Part shown: positions 2,749 through 44,812 of the stretch, piece by piece
How positions within the stretch are numbered: the stretch's first letter is position 1
Layout of the letters: each line of letters starts with the position of its first letter
Source of the DNA: Methanoregulaceae archaeon UXB-2016
GTDB lineage: Archaea; Halobacteriota; Methanomicrobia; Methanomicrobiales; Methanospirillaceae
Direction of reading: 5' to 3'
Assembly: GCA_004332335.1 (NCBI GenBank)
Contig: SISS01000029.1
Location: forward strand, 1-64,000
DNA length: 64,000 bases
Notes under the pieces: generated by a model
Databases searched by the model: none
Told to the model about the DNA's origin: nothing
Seen by the model: only the letters and a program-made list of their open reading frames with translations
Program-made: the position numbers and the translations under genes

Positions 2749-2799
2749 CTAGGATATGTGTCATTTTAACCACCAACTCCTACCATTTAGGAGGGGTTC

Positions 2800-3096
2800 A
2801 TGGCCACGATCAGCTGCCCGCGATGTCACTGCACGAAGGTGTATCGACTGGGCACTGGGAAACCGTCGATGCTCAATGTCGGTACGACTTCCGTCCCCAT
2901 CGGTTGCCTCTCCACCTGACACGGGATCAATGGAACGCGATCATCACCTGGTTCCTGCTCGAACAGAGCAGCCAGACGATTGCAAACAGAAACCGGGATT
3001 GACCGAAGACGGGTTCTACGAGCCCTCACGTTGACACGGCAGGCTCTCCTCAGAGATGTCCTGGAGGTATTCACAGAAAGGAGAACAACGAGATGA
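2800..3096 (+). pseudogene. Decayed IS1595/ISXO2-like transposase N-terminus
   Basis: An ATG at 2800 follows a strong AGGAGGGG site and opens a peptide starting MATISCPRCHC, the zinc-ribbon start of IS1595-type transposases. Similarity then moves between frames. After a shift near 2870 a second frame reads through a Cys-Arg-Tyr-Asp-Phe segment to a stop near 3018. A third frame continues with an Arg-Arg-Arg-Val-Leu-Arg-Ala-Leu segment followed by a Leu-x-Asp-Val-x-Glu-Val-Phe segment up to a stop at 3094-3096, which in intact relatives leads into the catalytic domain. At least two frameshifts plus loss of the DDE region make it a dead fragment. Family assignment is from motif memory. Confidence 0.65.
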
Positions 3097-3202
3097 AATT
3101 AGAGTGCATCCTCGAGTGATTGGAGATGGAGGTTGGTGCCTGGTTTGCCACTAAACCCGGAAGATAGCCCTATCCCGTACGATCCACAACAAAGATAGTG
3201 TG

Positions 3203-3271
3203 ATGAACAGGACCCTGTATGTAATCCTGACAGTTGCTCTCACCCTCTGCCTCCTGGCCACGGCAGGGTGA
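3203..3271 (+). other. Lipoprotein signal peptide separated from the hydrolase by a frameshift
   Basis: ATG at 3203 opens a 22-residue peptide: Met-Asn-Arg, then a hydrophobic core ending Leu-Leu-Ala-Thr-Ala-Gly, then a TGA stop at 3269-3271. This is a lipobox lacking only its Cys. Adding one base after the TG at 3269-3270 (TGA to TGC) would restore Ala-Gly-Cys and join directly to the Thr-Ser-Ala-Pro-Gly linker of the hydrolase frame. I read this as the true N-terminus of the next gene, split by a one-base deletion or a sequencing error. Confidence 0.75.
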
Positions 3272-4080
3272 CGAGCGCTCCCGGTCAGCCCGCAACCCCG
3301 ACCAATACGACAGCCGCATCCGTTTCGACGTTCTCGCAATCTCCGGCTGTATCGTTCAACGCAACGCCCGTCAGGTATGCGGAGGCCGGCGGGGTCCGGC
3401 TGGGGTACCGTGAATTCGGATCCGGCGAACCTCTCCTGATGCTCGCCGGATTCGGCGCTACCATGGATATGCAGTGGAACGAGACCTTCATCGGCATCCT
3501 CGCCACGAAATACCATGTCTATACCTACGACCACCGCGGCATGGGATACAGCAGTGACGATAATGCGACACCAGCGATTGCCCGGTACGCTGACGATGCC
3601 ACGGCGCTGATGACCGCACTCGGGTATGACAGCATGCATGTATACGGGGTCTCCATGGGGTCGACGATCTCCCAGCAGCTGGTCATCGATCACCCCGAGC
3701 GCGTACGAAAACTGGTCCTGGACTCAGTGTCATACAGCATACGGCTCCCCGAGACCAGGTTACTGTTCAATACCATCGAATCGGTTGCCGGCAATACCAC
3801 CTTCCCTGAAGGTGTCAGAAATGAGGCACAGGCAAACCTTGCGTGGAACGGGTCCTATGACGGGCTTTCCGGCATCCAGAAGGACGTCATGCTCGTTGTG
3901 GGCACCGCCGACGTCCTGACTCCGGATGCGGTTGCGGTCCAGATGGCCGGGCAGATCAACGGCTCGTGGCTCGTGCGGTTCAAGGGTCTCCCCCATGTCG
4001 GGTCGCACTACGCACCCGATGAGTACGGGAAGAACGCACTCATGTTCCTCGGCACGGATGAGTCGCCGCTAGACAATTAA
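3268..4080 (+). CDS. Alpha/beta-hydrolase, probably a surface lipoprotein with a frameshifted leader
   Basis: The open frame gives 270 residues from a GTG at 3268. After a Thr/Pro-rich linker (residues ~1-35) comes a single-domain alpha/beta-hydrolase. Visible catalytic elements are the nucleophile elbow Gly-Val-Ser-Met-Gly, the acid in Gly-Thr-Ala-Asp-Val-Leu, and the late His in Leu-Pro-His-Val-Gly. The AGFGATMDMQW segment is the oxyanion-loop region. Substrate is unknown; relatives include esterases, haloperoxidase-like and epoxide-hydrolase-like proteins. The GTG start is an artefact of the split: the natural start is probably 3203, giving a membrane-anchored enzyme of ~292 residues facing outwards. 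As it stands, a product from GTG would be cytoplasmic. Confidence 0.8.
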   Translation: MTSAPGQPATPTNTTAASVSTFSQSPAVSFNATPVRYAEAGGVRLGYREFGSGEPLLMLAGFGATMDMQWNETFIGILATKYHVYTYDHRGMGYSSDDNATPAIARYADDATALMTALGYDSMHVYGVSMGSTISQQLVIDHPERVRKLVLDSVSYSIRLPETRLLFNTIESVAGNTTFPEGVRNEAQANLAWNGSYDGLSGIQKDVMLVVGTADVLTPDAVAVQMAGQINGSWLVRFKGLPHVGSHYAPDEYGKNALMFLGTDESPLDN

Positions 4081-4320
4081 TTCTCTTTTTTGATCTATGC
4101 CGGTCTTTCTCCGGTGGGGGCGGCCTGCAACTAAATAGATCTGCCGCTTTTACCTCAAATCAACGATCTGAGCCACATCAGGGTCTTTATACATTTTCGA
4201 ACTACTGATTCCCTGTACCCGAGCGACCGGTCTCGGAACCCGTTGAGCGTTTTGAATACCCGAAGCGCCAATAATTGTTCGACACCCCCACCCCTCTCTT
4301 CTCAAGGAGGGAACCAACCA

Positions 4321-7030: not shown

Positions 7031-7210
7031 TTATGCCCGGTCGTACGCGGCAAGAAATGCGTCGTGGTTCGGCAGCGTGAGCGGAGTCCGGGAGCCATCG
7101 GCGTTTCGCCGCTCCATTGCGACGTGGTTCCCAGCGCGCACCACATGAAACCCGAGGGCCGTCAGTGCCCGCAGGACCCGCTGCCGCGGGGCGTCCCTCG
7201 GAAACTTCAT
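7031..7210 (-). CDS. hicA: HicA-like mRNA-interferase toxin, shortened
   Basis: The 59-residue protein starts at ATG 7210 immediately after the stop codon of the HicB-like gene. It has the HicA double-stranded RNA-binding-like layout: an N-terminal helix with Arg-Val-Leu-Arg-Ala-Leu, then Gly-Phe-His-Val-Val-Arg-Ala-Gly-Asn-His with the catalytic His (residue 29), and the strand Pro-Leu-Thr-Leu-Pro-Asn-His. Relatives continue for about 15-20 residues with a final helix; here the frame diverges after Asn-His and stops early, so activity is doubtful. It is in one operon with the antitoxin upstream. Confidence 0.75.
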   Translation of the reverse strand: MKFPRDAPRQRVLRALTALGFHVVRAGNHVAMERRNADGSRTPLTLPNHDAFLAAYDRA

Positions 7211-7423
7211 CTAAACCGTGACCTCGGCGAGCCGCGCGTCGAGCACTTCAGCGTCGATCTCGTCCGGGCCGAAGGTCTCGATGTGGAACCGGATGGCCGA
7301 GATCACATCGGCGAGGGCCTCGTCGTAGGTGTCTTCTTCGCCAACGACCGTGCCCCGGAGTCCGACAGGGTACGCGACGAACCCGTCCGGATGTTCCTCA
7401 ACAACGATCTTCAGGTGCCGCAT
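7211..7423 (-). CDS. hicB: HicB-like antitoxin (UPF0150 fold)
   Basis: The 70-residue protein matches the compact HicB N-terminal fold: a two-strand start with Gly-Phe-Val-Ala-Tyr-Pro, the Gly-Thr-Val-Val-Gly-Glu-Glu-Asp-Thr-Tyr-Asp-Glu-Ala turn, then a helix (Ala-Leu-Ala-Asp-Val). It lacks a clear DNA-binding C-terminus. Its stop codon abuts the HicA start, so translation is coupled. It is transcribed against the surrounding remnants, which suggests the pair was inserted among the beta-helix copies. Confidence 0.8.
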   Translation of the reverse strand: MRHLKIVVEEHPDGFVAYPVGLRGTVVGEEDTYDEALADVISAIRFHIETFGPDEIDAEVLDARLAEVTV

Positions 7424-20319: not shown

Positions 20320-20925
20320 TCAGGCCTGTCCCGCGAGCTGTTCCCCGAGCCGGCGGCCCGCGGCGCGGGCCTCCTCGAGGAGCGCCGGGAACTGCGCAAG
20401 ATCCCGCTTGTCGTCCATGTCGTCGATCAGCAGCTCCTCGCCCGGCGTCACATCCGTGATGTCGAAGAAGGCCCCGGTGGTCTGCCGCACCCCGTCGAAG
20501 ACGTACGGGACCCGCTCCCTCGAGAGCCCCGAGATCGCGAGCATCAGGCCGTGCCGCTGCTTCTTCCGCTCCTTCGGGACGAGCGGGTCCTTCCGCCCGT
20601 ACTTTGCCCAGTAGAACACCTGGAACCGGTCCATGAAGCCCTTGAGCTTGCCGGGCACGCCCATGGTCATGACCGGGGTCGCGACGATGATCCCGTCGGC
20701 CTCGACCACTTTATCGTAGTACGGGGTGAGATCGTCGAGCTGCGAGCACTCGGGCTTCTCCATGCAGTGCAGGATCTCCATGCAGGGCTCGAAGGTCAGG
20801 AACGGGACGTTCACGCGCTCGACCGCGCAGCCTGCCTCGACGGCGCCGGCCAGCGCCTGCTCGAGGAGGAGGGCGGTGTTGCCCCGGGGAAGCGGGGAGC
20901 CGAGCAGTCCGATGATCATGGGCAT
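20320..20925 (-). CDS. FMN-dependent reductase / iron-sulfur-flavoprotein relative
   Basis: The ~201-residue flavodoxin-fold protein has Gly-Ser-Pro-Leu-Pro-Arg-Gly-Asn-Thr as its FMN phosphate loop, a Cys group (Pro-Cys-Met-Glu-Ile-Leu-His-Cys-Met-Glu-Lys-Pro-Glu-Cys), and Ala-Thr-Pro-Val-Met-Thr-Met-Gly-Val-Pro. Start 20925 is set by the TATA box at 20948-20956, which would make the message leaderless. Its Cys spacing (x5, x5) differs from the classic CxxCxxC of iron-sulfur flavoproteins, so whether it holds a cluster is open. Probable role in electron transfer to oxygen or peroxide defence. Confidence 0.8.
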   Translation of the reverse strand: MPMIIGLLGSPLPRGNTALLLEQALAGAVEAGCAVERVNVPFLTFEPCMEILHCMEKPECSQLDDLTPYYDKVVEADGIIVATPVMTMGVPGKLKGFMDRFQVFYWAKYGRKDPLVPKERKKQRHGLMLAISGLSRERVPYVFDGVRQTTGAFFDITDVTPGEELLIDDMDDKRDLAQFPALLEEARAAGRRLGEQLAGQA

Positions 20926-20947
20926 GGACCTGGAGTTGACCGAGCTA

Positions 20948-20956
20948 CATAAAAAA
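20948..20956 (-). promoter_or_regulatory. TATA box deciding the flavoprotein start
   Basis: The minus strand reads CTTTTTTATGTA here, centred about 27 bp upstream of ATG 20925. This places transcription start at or next to the start codon and rules out the longer frame from 20973. Confidence 0.6.
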
Positions 20957-21080
20957 GTATGGTCGATCGGCATGATTGCAGGCGGATGCCGATATTTCGT
21001 ACTGGGGTGAACTATCGGGATGTACTGTCACTCTTCAGCCTGATCGGGTCTATTTCGGCTGAATCTGAATAAACATAACC

Positions 21081-34424: not shown

Positions 34425-35537
34425 CTAAAACCCGGCCTCCGCGGAATCGATCGCAGCGTCGATCTGCCGCTGGAGCAGCTCGGGCAGCCCCCGGATCTTT
34501 ACATCGAGGAAGCCTCTGATAATCGTTGCGGTCGCGGTCTCCTCGTCCAGGCCGCGGGACATCAGGTACTCGATCTCGTCCCGCGCAATCCGGCCGACCG
34601 CGGCCTCGTGCGAGAGCTCGGTGTCGACCACGAGCCCCGCGATCTCGGGGATCGCGTGGATCATCCCGTCCTTGAGGATCAGGCCCTTGCACTCGATATG
34701 CCCCTTCGTCCCGGGGACCTCGCCGCGGATCTCGCCGCGGCTGATGATCGTGCCGCCCCGGGTGATCATCCGGCTGACCAGTTCGGCCGAGCTGCCCGGC
34801 GCCTGGAGGAGGGCGCGGGACCCGAGGTCGAGGGTCGAGCCCGGGAGCCCGACCACGACCGACGAGAACCGGGCGACCGCGTCCTTCCCCCTCAGCGTTG
34901 CGGTCGGGTTCATGTCGATGTGCCGGACGGGCTGCATGCAGACGTAGTTCGAGAGGAAGACCCCGCCCTCCTCGATGATGGAGGCCGACCGGGGGTAGAC
35001 CGAGATCGACGCCGACCAGTTGTGGATCATGGTCGAGGTGACCCGGGCGTTCTTGCCGACGTAGATCTCGGTCACGCCGATGTGCGCGCCCGACTTGGTC
35101 TGGGCGCCCGAGACGCAGCCCGAGATCAGGTGGAGCTCGGCCCCCTCCTCGGCGATCACGATGTTGTGGACGTACTGGACCTTGGCGTCGGCCAGATAGA
35201 GGCAGGCCTGGAGGGGGTAGATCGCCTTTGCCCCCTTCCGGGCGATGATCACAAAGCCCTGCTGGGTCTCCTGCTTGGCGACGAACTGCGTGAACCGGTC
35301 CTTGTCCTTATCGACCGCCTTCCAGGAGTAGTCCTTGAGCCAGTCGTACTTCAGGAGGGCCTCGGCGATCGGCAGCACCTCGATCCCCTCGGTCCCCGAG
35401 TGGACGTGCCGGATCTCCTGGTCGACCTGGAAGAACGAGCCCGAGCGCTCCTCCATCTCCACGTTGAGGCCCGCGAGCGCGAGCCGTGTCCGGTCCTCCT
35501 CGGAGAGGTCCTTGAGTTCGCCTACATCCGCTGGCAT
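34425..35537 (-). CDS. sufB: SufB/SufD-family iron-sulfur cluster scaffold
   Basis: The 370-residue protein, starting at ATG 35537, is a SufBD core: a parallel beta-helix with Gly-Thr-Lys-Gly-His-Ile-Glu-Cys-Lys-Gly near residue 270, Pro-Glu-Ile-Ala-Gly-Leu, and Leu-Ser-His-Glu-Ala-Ala-Val-Gly-Arg-Ile. Cys and the late His are the expected cluster-transfer residues. With SufC it forms the minimal archaeal Suf scaffold. It overlaps sufC by 16 bp. Confidence 0.92.
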   Translation of the reverse strand: MPADVGELKDLSEEDRTRLALAGLNVEMEERSGSFFQVDQEIRHVHSGTEGIEVLPIAEALLKYDWLKDYSWKAVDKDKDRFTQFVAKQETQQGFVIIARKGAKAIYPLQACLYLADAKVQYVHNIVIAEEGAELHLISGCVSGAQTKSGAHIGVTEIYVGKNARVTSTMIHNWSASISVYPRSASIIEEGGVFLSNYVCMQPVRHIDMNPTATLRGKDAVARFSSVVVGLPGSTLDLGSRALLQAPGSSAELVSRMITRGGTIISRGEIRGEVPGTKGHIECKGLILKDGMIHAIPEIAGLVVDTELSHEAAVGRIARDEIEYLMSRGLDEETATATIIRGFLDVKIRGLPELLQRQIDAAIDSAEAGF

Positions 35538-36253
35538 TCGATGCACTCCTGATACCCGTGGGTCTTGATCGACTTCAGGATCTCGCGCGGGTTGCCGTGG
35601 CACTTGAAGACCCCGTCGCAGAGGACGTGGCCGTAATCCGCGTCGATATAGTCGAGGATGTACCCCGTGTGGGTGATGATCAGCCCGCTCTTGGTCCTGT
35701 GCACGATGTGCTGGTCCTTCTCGAGGAGCCGGGCGGTCGCGTTGCCGATCAGGGAGATGTTCTCCAGGTCGACGCCGGACTCGGGCTCGTCGAGCATCAC
35801 GAACGACGGGTCCTGGACGAGGAGCTGGAGCACCTCGCTCCGCTTGATCTCGCCGCCCGAGAAGCCGGCGTTCACGTCGCGGTCGAGGAACCGGTCCATG
35901 TTCAGCTCCTCGGCGAGCGCCGGGATCCGGTCGGCCCGGTCCTTCGCGGTCACGTCCAGGAGCTTGCCGAGCTTGAGCCCCGCGATCGTGGGCGGCCGCT
36001 GGTAGAGCATCCCCATTCCCCGCTTCGCCCGCTCGTGGAGCGGCATGCGCGTGACGTCCTCGCCGTTGAAGACGATCGTGCCCGCGGTCACCTCGTTCCC
36101 CGCAAAGCCCATGATCGTCCGGAGGAGCGTCGTCTTGCCCGACCCGTTCGGCCCCATCATCACGTGGGTCTCGCCGTCGCCGATCGTGAGGTTGATGTCG
36201 TGGAGGACCTCCCTCTCCTCGATCGAGACGTGCAAATCTGTGATCTCGAGCAT
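35522..36253 (-). CDS. sufC: SufC-type ABC ATPase of iron-sulfur assembly
   Basis: The 243-residue protein, starting at ATG 36253 (MLEITDLHV), has Walker A Gly-Pro-Asn-Gly-Ser-Gly-Lys-Thr-Thr, the signature Phe-Ser-Gly-Gly-Glu-Ile-Lys-Arg-Ser-Glu and Walker B Phe-Val-Met-Leu-Asp-Glu-Pro. The Lys-Arg-Ser-Glu after the signature is typical of SufC rather than transporters. It powers cluster assembly on SufB. The upstream open frame to 36307 has no support. Confidence 0.93.
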   Translation of the reverse strand: MLEITDLHVSIEEREVLHDINLTIGDGETHVMMGPNGSGKTTLLRTIMGFAGNEVTAGTIVFNGEDVTRMPLHERAKRGMGMLYQRPPTIAGLKLGKLLDVTAKDRADRIPALAEELNMDRFLDRDVNAGFSGGEIKRSEVLQLLVQDPSFVMLDEPESGVDLENISLIGNATARLLEKDQHIVHRTKSGLIITHTGYILDYIDADYGHVLCDGVFKCHGNPREILKSIKTHGYQECIECQRM

Positions 36254-36363
36254 GGCTCTTCGGCAGATGTATCGAGCGCACAGATTATACCGTTGCCGAT
36301 CCGGCATACACTTTCACATCGTAAGCGCGCCGCTTATGGAGGGGTCTCGACAGACTCTCTCTC

Positions 36364-36561
36364 ATGGAGCGGGAGACCTTTCTTCATATCGCCGAGCGCG
36401 CCGCCCGGTACCCGAGCGTGCAGCGGCGCGGACAGCTCGTCCGGGCGTCCCTCACGACGCCCCGTGCTTCGGATCGGGCCGGGGCGTCCCATCGGCGTCC
36501 GGTCTTCTTTGCCGGGCTCGCGGCCCGTGCCGCGGACTACGGCGGGTGCGCCGAGACGTAG
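36364..36561 (+). CDS. Possible small protein, unsupported family
   Basis: ATG 36364 opens 65 codons rich in Ala/Arg. The first 30 residues look like a normal amphipathic helix; the rest is Arg-rich as expected of spurious GC-rich frames. It overlaps the 3' end of the convergent lipoprotein gene by 25 bp. Only a weak GGAGGGG is present, 25 bp upstream. It could be real or chance; the 36254-36536 gap has nothing else. Confidence 0.25.
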   Translation: MERETFLHIAERAARYPSVQRRGQLVRASLTTPRASDRAGASHRRPVFFAGLAARAADYGGCAET

Positions 36562-43566: not shown

Positions 43567-44571
43567 TCAGAGAATAATCTCGATATCTAATTTCTCTGCC
43601 AGTTCCTTATATCGGTTCCGGATCGTGACCTCGGTCACGCCGGCGACCTCGGCCACCTCGCGCTGGGTGCGGCGCTCCCCGCCCAGGATCGACGAGATGT
43701 AAATGGCGGCCGCTGCGACGCCCGTTGGGCCTCTGCCGCTTGTTAATTCGCGTTCGGCCGCCTGGCGGAGGATCTCGACCGCCCGGCTCTGCACCTCGCC
43801 CTTCAGAGTGAGCCCGGAGCAGAAGCGCGGTACATAATCGATCGGAGAGGTCGGCAGGAGCTTCAGGCCGAGCTCGCGCGAGATGAACCGGTAGGTCCGC
43901 CCGATCTCCTTTCGGCTGACCCGGGAGACCTCGGCGATCTCGTCGAGCGTCCGCGGGACGCTGCACTGCCGGCAGGCGGCGTAGAGCGCGGCCGCGGCCA
44001 CGCCCTCGATCGACCGTCCCCGGATCAGGTTCTTGTCGACCGCGTCGCGGTAGACGACCGCGGCCGTCTCGCGGACGTTCCGCGGCAGCCCGAGGGCCGA
44101 GGCCATCCGGTCGAGTTCCGAGAGTGCGAAGGCGAGGTTCCGCTCGGTCGCGTTCGAGACCCGGATCCGCCGCTGCCACTTCCGGAGCCGGTAGAGCTGC
44201 GCACGGTTCTTCGAGGAGATCGCACGACCGTAGCTGTCCCGGTTCCGCCAGTCGATCATGGTCGAGAGGCCCTTGTCGTGGATCGTGAAGGTCATCGGAG
44301 CGCCGACACGCGACCGCTTCATCCGCTGGTCGTGGTCGAAGGCCCGCCACTCGGGGCCGCGGTCGATGAAGTCGTCGTCGATGACGAGGCCGCAGTTCTG
44401 GCAGACGAGCTCGGCACGCTCGTAATCGTGGACGAGCTGCCGGCTCTTGCACTCGGGGCAGACCGTCTCGGTGTGCTCCTCGGTCTTTCGCTCGCGCTCA
44501 ACGACGCGGCTCCGGTTACGGAAGGCCTCGCGCTGACTCTGGAGTATACGAAGTTTCTCTATCTCCTGCAT
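43567..44571 (-). CDS. tfb: Transcription initiation factor TFB
   Basis: The 334-residue protein has a zinc ribbon (Cys-Pro-Glu-Cys ... Cys-Gln-Asn-Cys, residues ~38-60), the B-reader region with Glu-Trp-Arg-Ala-Phe, and two cyclin-like repeats with [10 protein letters not shown] and [10 protein letters not shown]. It binds TBP-DNA and recruits RNA polymerase. It lies 13 bp after gar1. Confidence 0.96.
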
Positions 44572-44584
44572 ATCTGGATGACAC

Positions 44585-44812
44585 CTATGACCTGGTGAAT
44601 ATCTTCTCGCCGACCGGCTGCTCGCACCGGCCGTGGCACAGGACCGCGGCGTACGGACTCTTTACATTTCCGAAGAGGTCCACGATCCGGCCCACGGGAC
44701 GATGACGCCGGTCGACGACCGTCGCATAGAGGGCGGGGAGCTGCGCCGCGTCCACCGTGACGATCAGCATCCGCTGCCCACATACGTGTACGATACGTCC
44801 CACCGTCTTCAT
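44585..44812 (-). CDS. gar1: Gar1-like H/ACA RNP protein
   Basis: The 75-residue protein has the Gar1 beta-barrel pattern: an N-terminal strand (Val-Gly-Arg-Ile-Val-His-Val), Val-Val-Asp-Arg-Arg, Val-Gly-Arg-Ile-Val-Asp-Leu-Phe-Gly, and Pro-Tyr-Ala-Ala-Val. Together with Cbf5, Nop10 and L7Ae it guides rRNA pseudouridylation. A TATA box AAATATATAC at 44855-44864 (minus) precedes it. gar1-tfb pairing is common in euryarchaea. Confidence 0.88.

Follow-up and report, generated by a model that had tools for sequence, protein, structure and literature searches.

A probable young pseudogene: a single-base deletion in the lipobox cysteine codon of an archaeal alpha/beta-hydrolase gene

A signal peptide that runs into a stop codon where a lipoprotein carries its lipid-anchoring cysteine, followed one base out of step by an alpha/beta-hydrolase frame, raises the question whether the gene has been switched, relocated, misread in sequencing or simply broken. 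The window, i.e., the whole stretch of 64,000 nucleotides that has been analysed, lies on contig 26 of a draft genome (2.37 Mb, 45 contigs, 92.7% completeness), and its features around this locus are collected in Table 1. Direct reading has confirmed the arrangement that had been described from the letters alone: the 22-residue signal peptide ends in TGA, the 270-residue hydrolase lies in the −1 frame relative to it, and the GTG of the latter and the TGA of the former overlap as GTGA. The hydrolase frame is open from 3199, and this GTG is the earliest ATG, GTG or TTG within it. The hydrophobic N-terminal stretch MNRTLYVILTVALTLCLLATAG aligns by eye with the signal peptides of relatives; a lipoprotein is recognised by a Cys in frame with its mature part, and this is absent from the window, where two of the three bases of the Cys codon are left and TGA is read instead.

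Table 1. Features at the hydrolase locus, with positions in the window
Feature	Positions	Strand	Basis
IS1595-family insertion sequence, internally deleted and frame-broken	2751–3158	+	similarity to full-length copy
Segment common to the window and Chersky_702, 93% DNA identity	3173–4114	+	nucleotide alignment
Leader before ATG 3203, predicted pairing with the 16S rRNA 3' end weaker than in Chersky_702	3181–3202	+	
Signal-peptide frame, ATG 3203, MNRTLYVILTVALTLCLLATAG then TGA (3269–3271) at the relatives' lipobox Cys	3203–3271	+	sequence, copy comparison
Alpha/beta-hydrolase frame, 270 codons, GTG 3268, stop 4078–4080	3268–4080	+	ORF list, PF00561
GTGA overlap of a possible start GTG and the stop TGA, product of the one-base loss	3268–3271	+	

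What the locus has lost becomes apparent from its nearest relative, a copy in the same-genus genome of Methanomicrobiales archaeon Chersky_702 (G002; locus L010, identical in sequence to L039). There, signal peptide and hydrolase share one frame with the lipobox Cys intact, MNRTQCVILTVALTLCLLATAGC being followed by TSAPG to read LLATAGC-TSAPG. The alignment of the common segment has shown 55 mismatches and two gaps, at which the window is short by one base in the Cys codon and by six bases in the linker; outside this segment, nothing in the retrieved 3.8-kb Chersky_702 stretch matches the window at E 1e-5. The one-base loss in the Cys codon, as proposed in the sequence-only reading, is thus borne out by a relative that is one base longer there and reads through in a single frame. 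The accompanying statement that an added base restores Cys holds for an insertion inside that codon, but not for one in the adjoining GGG run, which gives Gly-Val. Likewise, the lesion does fall exactly at the anchor residue, but this is a single codon among about 290, and the coincidence was noticed post hoc.

A survey of related copies places this lesion in a wider context. It comprises 61 distinct copies including the window, one per distinct 300-base core; a copy was admitted at 45% identity or more, if its match began close to the start of the enzyme body and 150 bases lay upstream. An in-frame Cys at the lipobox has been found in 53 of the 60 others (51 by script, L030 and L036 by eye), in lipoboxes such as TAGC, AAGC, VAGC and others, and an interruption at the Cys codon occurs in the window only. 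Five copies (L018, L025, L040, L047, L075) possess an open frame with a hydrophobic start and no Cys, so that loss of the anchor need not mean loss of the gene; L024 is an inactivated copy, in which a signal-like stretch and the body lie in different frames with one extra stop in each and no Cys, and L070 has no recognisable signal. As is characteristic of a pseudogene, the lesion in the window interrupts an otherwise conserved gene and is not present in the relatives. The distribution of the gene is patchy, with a DNA match in 56 of the 108 genomes of the family, and the genome of the window holds in addition a paralogue remnant (L002, contig C11), a C-terminal fragment of about 100 residues with 54% identity to the Chersky_702 protein. 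The named relatives closest to the hydrolase lie in records that carry the names of Methanomicrobiales and other methanogens; a scan of viral contigs has yielded no confirmed relative, and a literature search has brought no paper on this hydrolase gene family to our notice.

Regarding the enzyme itself, the frame matches Abhydrolase_1 (PF00561) at 3.5e-22 (79.7 bits against a cut-off of 25.8, residues 55–155) and shares with that family the nucleophile motif G-V-S-M-G and the conserved Asp and His. The residues S129, D215 and H243, invariant in 30 aligned sequences including the window, presumably form the Ser-Asp-His triad, a role assigned by motif only, since the AlphaFold model has a mean pLDDT of 35 and is too poor for triad geometry. 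The hydrolase departs from the solved structures in that the best stretch never reaches past its residue 176 among the 60 of 135 matches listed. Neither a stop nor another frameshift interrupts the enzyme frame, every column that is invariant in the 29 other aligned members is unchanged in it, and the pairwise dN/dS between the window and Chersky_702 hydrolases, with the frame-joining codon included, amounts to 0.27, so that the enzyme shows no visible decay. Polarised changes (synonymous/nonsynonymous) have been counted as 6/8 on the window branch and 10/6 on the Chersky_702 branch, a difference that is not significant (Fisher p 0.46). This count leaves out 3 nucleotide differences at the frame-joining codon, which were taken for artefacts, and 13 more that are not polarisable. 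As judged from these sequences, either the lesion would be young or the enzyme frame would still be in use. Since the enzyme frame is still clean, the loss looks young, and with the codon intact in the relatives the recent mutation that had been suggested earlier gains support.

The flanks of the gene do not match those in Chersky_702. There, a preceding lipoprotein gene, which we take to be esterase-like, ends 42 nt before the hydrolase ATG; it is missing in the window, where the shared leader amounts to only 30 nt and the broken IS1595-type copy stops 14 bases short of the common segment. Compared with a full-length IS1595-family copy of the same genome (L004:734-1596, contig 44; 32-nt terminal inverted repeats, transposase domain PF12762 at 1.9e-32), the two ends of the window copy are 85% and 78% identical and the interior is deleted. 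The synonymous divergence of the hydrolase from Chersky_702 is 0.134, below that of all 40 conserved frames compared between the two genomes (median 0.42, minimum 0.16), and because this value is low and the flanks are non-matching, a horizontally exchanged accessory gene is suggested. Downstream of the hydrolase, a non-coding stretch of about 92 bp (4117–4209) recurs at 9 other genomic places with 73–79% identity (E up to 0.001), and contigs C5, C6 and C19 begin with copies of it, so that this repeat may break the assembly. Elsewhere, the window holds a gene on the minus strand (355–2703) with ice-binding-like and NosD beta-helix domains and a long Ser-Thr-Gln-Pro repeat linker between them, a HicA-like toxin frame scoring at the Pfam cut-off (7034–7423, minus strand) with a small upstream frame that looks HicB-like by eye and has no Pfam match, and four tRNAs (Rfam, gathering scores).

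Taken together, we consider that the locus is probably an accessory gene of a Methanomicrobiales archaeon that encoded a lipid-anchored alpha/beta-hydrolase and was inactivated recently, when its lipobox Cys codon lost one base, and that the finding is most likely an ordinary young pseudogene, not a genetic switch. The ancestral gene would have encoded an exported, lipid-anchored enzyme; upon loss of one base from the Cys codon, signal peptide and enzyme would have come to lie in different frames, translation from the ATG would halt after 22 residues, no lipoprotein would be produced, and the enzyme frame would persist as a young relic. Two circumstances probably made this loss tolerable: the gene adjoins a degraded insertion sequence, away from the presumed esterase-like gene of Chersky_702, and this hydrolase family shows turnover between genomes. 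With the archaeal lipoproteins of a haloarchaeal mutational study (PMC2945643) the gene has in common a signal peptide ending in a lipobox, the Cys of which is here found in the relatives. According to the available portion of that report, replacement of Cys by Ser left some precursors unprocessed, either released or cell-bound, and others seemingly processed but less stable; in the window, by contrast, no residue is swapped but the frame is broken, so that enzyme and signal are no longer connected.

A single-base error of sequencing or assembly, in an organism that has the intact lipoprotein gene, would agree with a signal peptide and an enzyme frame that are otherwise whole and with the draft state of the genome, and for a single base the sequencing error considered in the earlier reading is indeed conceivable. 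However, homopolymers are the usual place of sequencing errors, and the missing base lies outside any of them, with nothing longer than GGG at the site. Moreover, the comparison of 40 conserved window frames with Chersky_702 (non-overlapping, chosen by low dN/dS, at least 80 aligned codons, 10,001 aligned codons in sum) has revealed no clear frameshift, a comparison that covers the stretches of 1–60000 with large Chersky_702 matches and misses genes already in pieces of less than 90 codons. We regard an error at this base as unlikely, and from the same frames a general assembly error would be unlikely as well. In 39 of the 40 frames the two genomes place the end no more than 12 codons apart; the remaining one (20524–20961) is located at a Chersky_702 contig end. 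The upstream extensions of nine Chersky_702 frames have been searched in the window, and most matches have been read as neighbouring genes in another frame. One 5' end is ambiguous: at 36253–36431, next to the gene 35525–36253 (minus strand), the start residues of the Chersky_702 protein match another window frame with 72% over 25 residues, possibly by a second indel or a shifted start. An apparent split at 43570–44783 has been traced to a presumably TFIIB-like gene whose Chersky_702 frame extends upstream. This gene (43567–44571, minus strand) encodes a protein 99.7% identical to that of Chersky_702, while it has a dS of 0.32.

The GTGA overlap leads to a further reading, in which the 22-codon leader would be translated, terminated at TGA and followed by re-initiation at the overlapping GTG, yielding an unanchored cytosolic hydrolase. 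Indeed, 147 single-base deletions are possible in the Chersky_702 copy before the conserved body begins, of which only that of the window places such an overlap in front of the entire body (with 123 others it falls inside), and the clean enzyme frame would be in line with continued translation. However, the overlap was spotted post hoc and is the same coincidence as the lesion striking the Cys codon. The GTG is found without a well-placed SD, the best pairing abutting the codon, and the leader itself has a weak ribosome site: its predicted pairing with the 16S rRNA 3' end is −1.9 kcal/mol, whereas Chersky_702 reaches −4.6 and 16 other copies lie between −2.9 and −9.7. Random ATGs of the window reach a median of −3.8 (best quarter at or below −5.9), and the weak pairing of the leader is therefore weak evidence. 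A promoter-like box has not been found in the 250 nt upstream, where the best TATA-like octamer has 3 mismatches, and the same scan has left Chersky_702 likewise without one. In Haloferax volcanii, termination-reinitiation at overlaps has been validated for 9 of 9 gene pairs, and it persisted in all 7 pairs that had been deprived of the SD, although with an efficiency lowered by 20–80% in 6 of these 7 (PMC6728339, as far as its available text goes). The window resembles those pairs in the four-base overlap of stop and start, and differs from them in that a GTG takes the place of ATG and has arisen from a single deletion, with no conserved pair; the abstract of that study names ATGA or TGATG, and GTGA is absent from its available text. 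Taking both sides into account, re-initiation appears quite unlikely, and it is decidedly improbable that a single deletion both removed the anchor and created a GTGA re-initiation site, i.e., a one-step relocation from an exported lipoprotein to a cytosolic enzyme.

A phase-variable or programmed-frameshift gene that alternates between anchored and unanchored forms is highly improbable, as the sole point in its favour is that the lesion lies between the signal and the enzyme, while the only tandem repeats in 3050–3450 are two 10-base units at 3386–3406, off the site, no inverted repeat has been found to span the lesion, inspection has disclosed no X-XXY-YYZ slippery heptamer at the site, the RNA around and after it is no more stably folded than shuffled sequence (z 0.33, pseudoknots being outside the model), and −1 frameshifting or one more G in the GGG run would produce Gly-Val, so that none of these routes restores a lipid anchor. 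The phase-variation-like switch of the sequence-only reading is hence left unsupported, and phase variation, GGG slippage and programmed frameshifting have been rejected on the sequence of the site, its structure and the Cys-less products, as has recoding of the TGA, where readthrough stays in the wrong frame. The gene shares with fucA1 of Sulfolobus, a case of programmed −1 frameshifting, an interruption with the halves in −1 frame, but differs from it in that neither a stimulatory structure nor a slippery heptamer of the form given in the available part of that study (PMC8211752) has been found.

If re-initiation were true, the locus would offer a clean natural case in which one indel shifts an enzyme from the surface to the cytoplasm without destroying it. 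As a young pseudogene, which we prefer, it would have little import beyond the turnover of lipoprotein hydrolases in methanogens.
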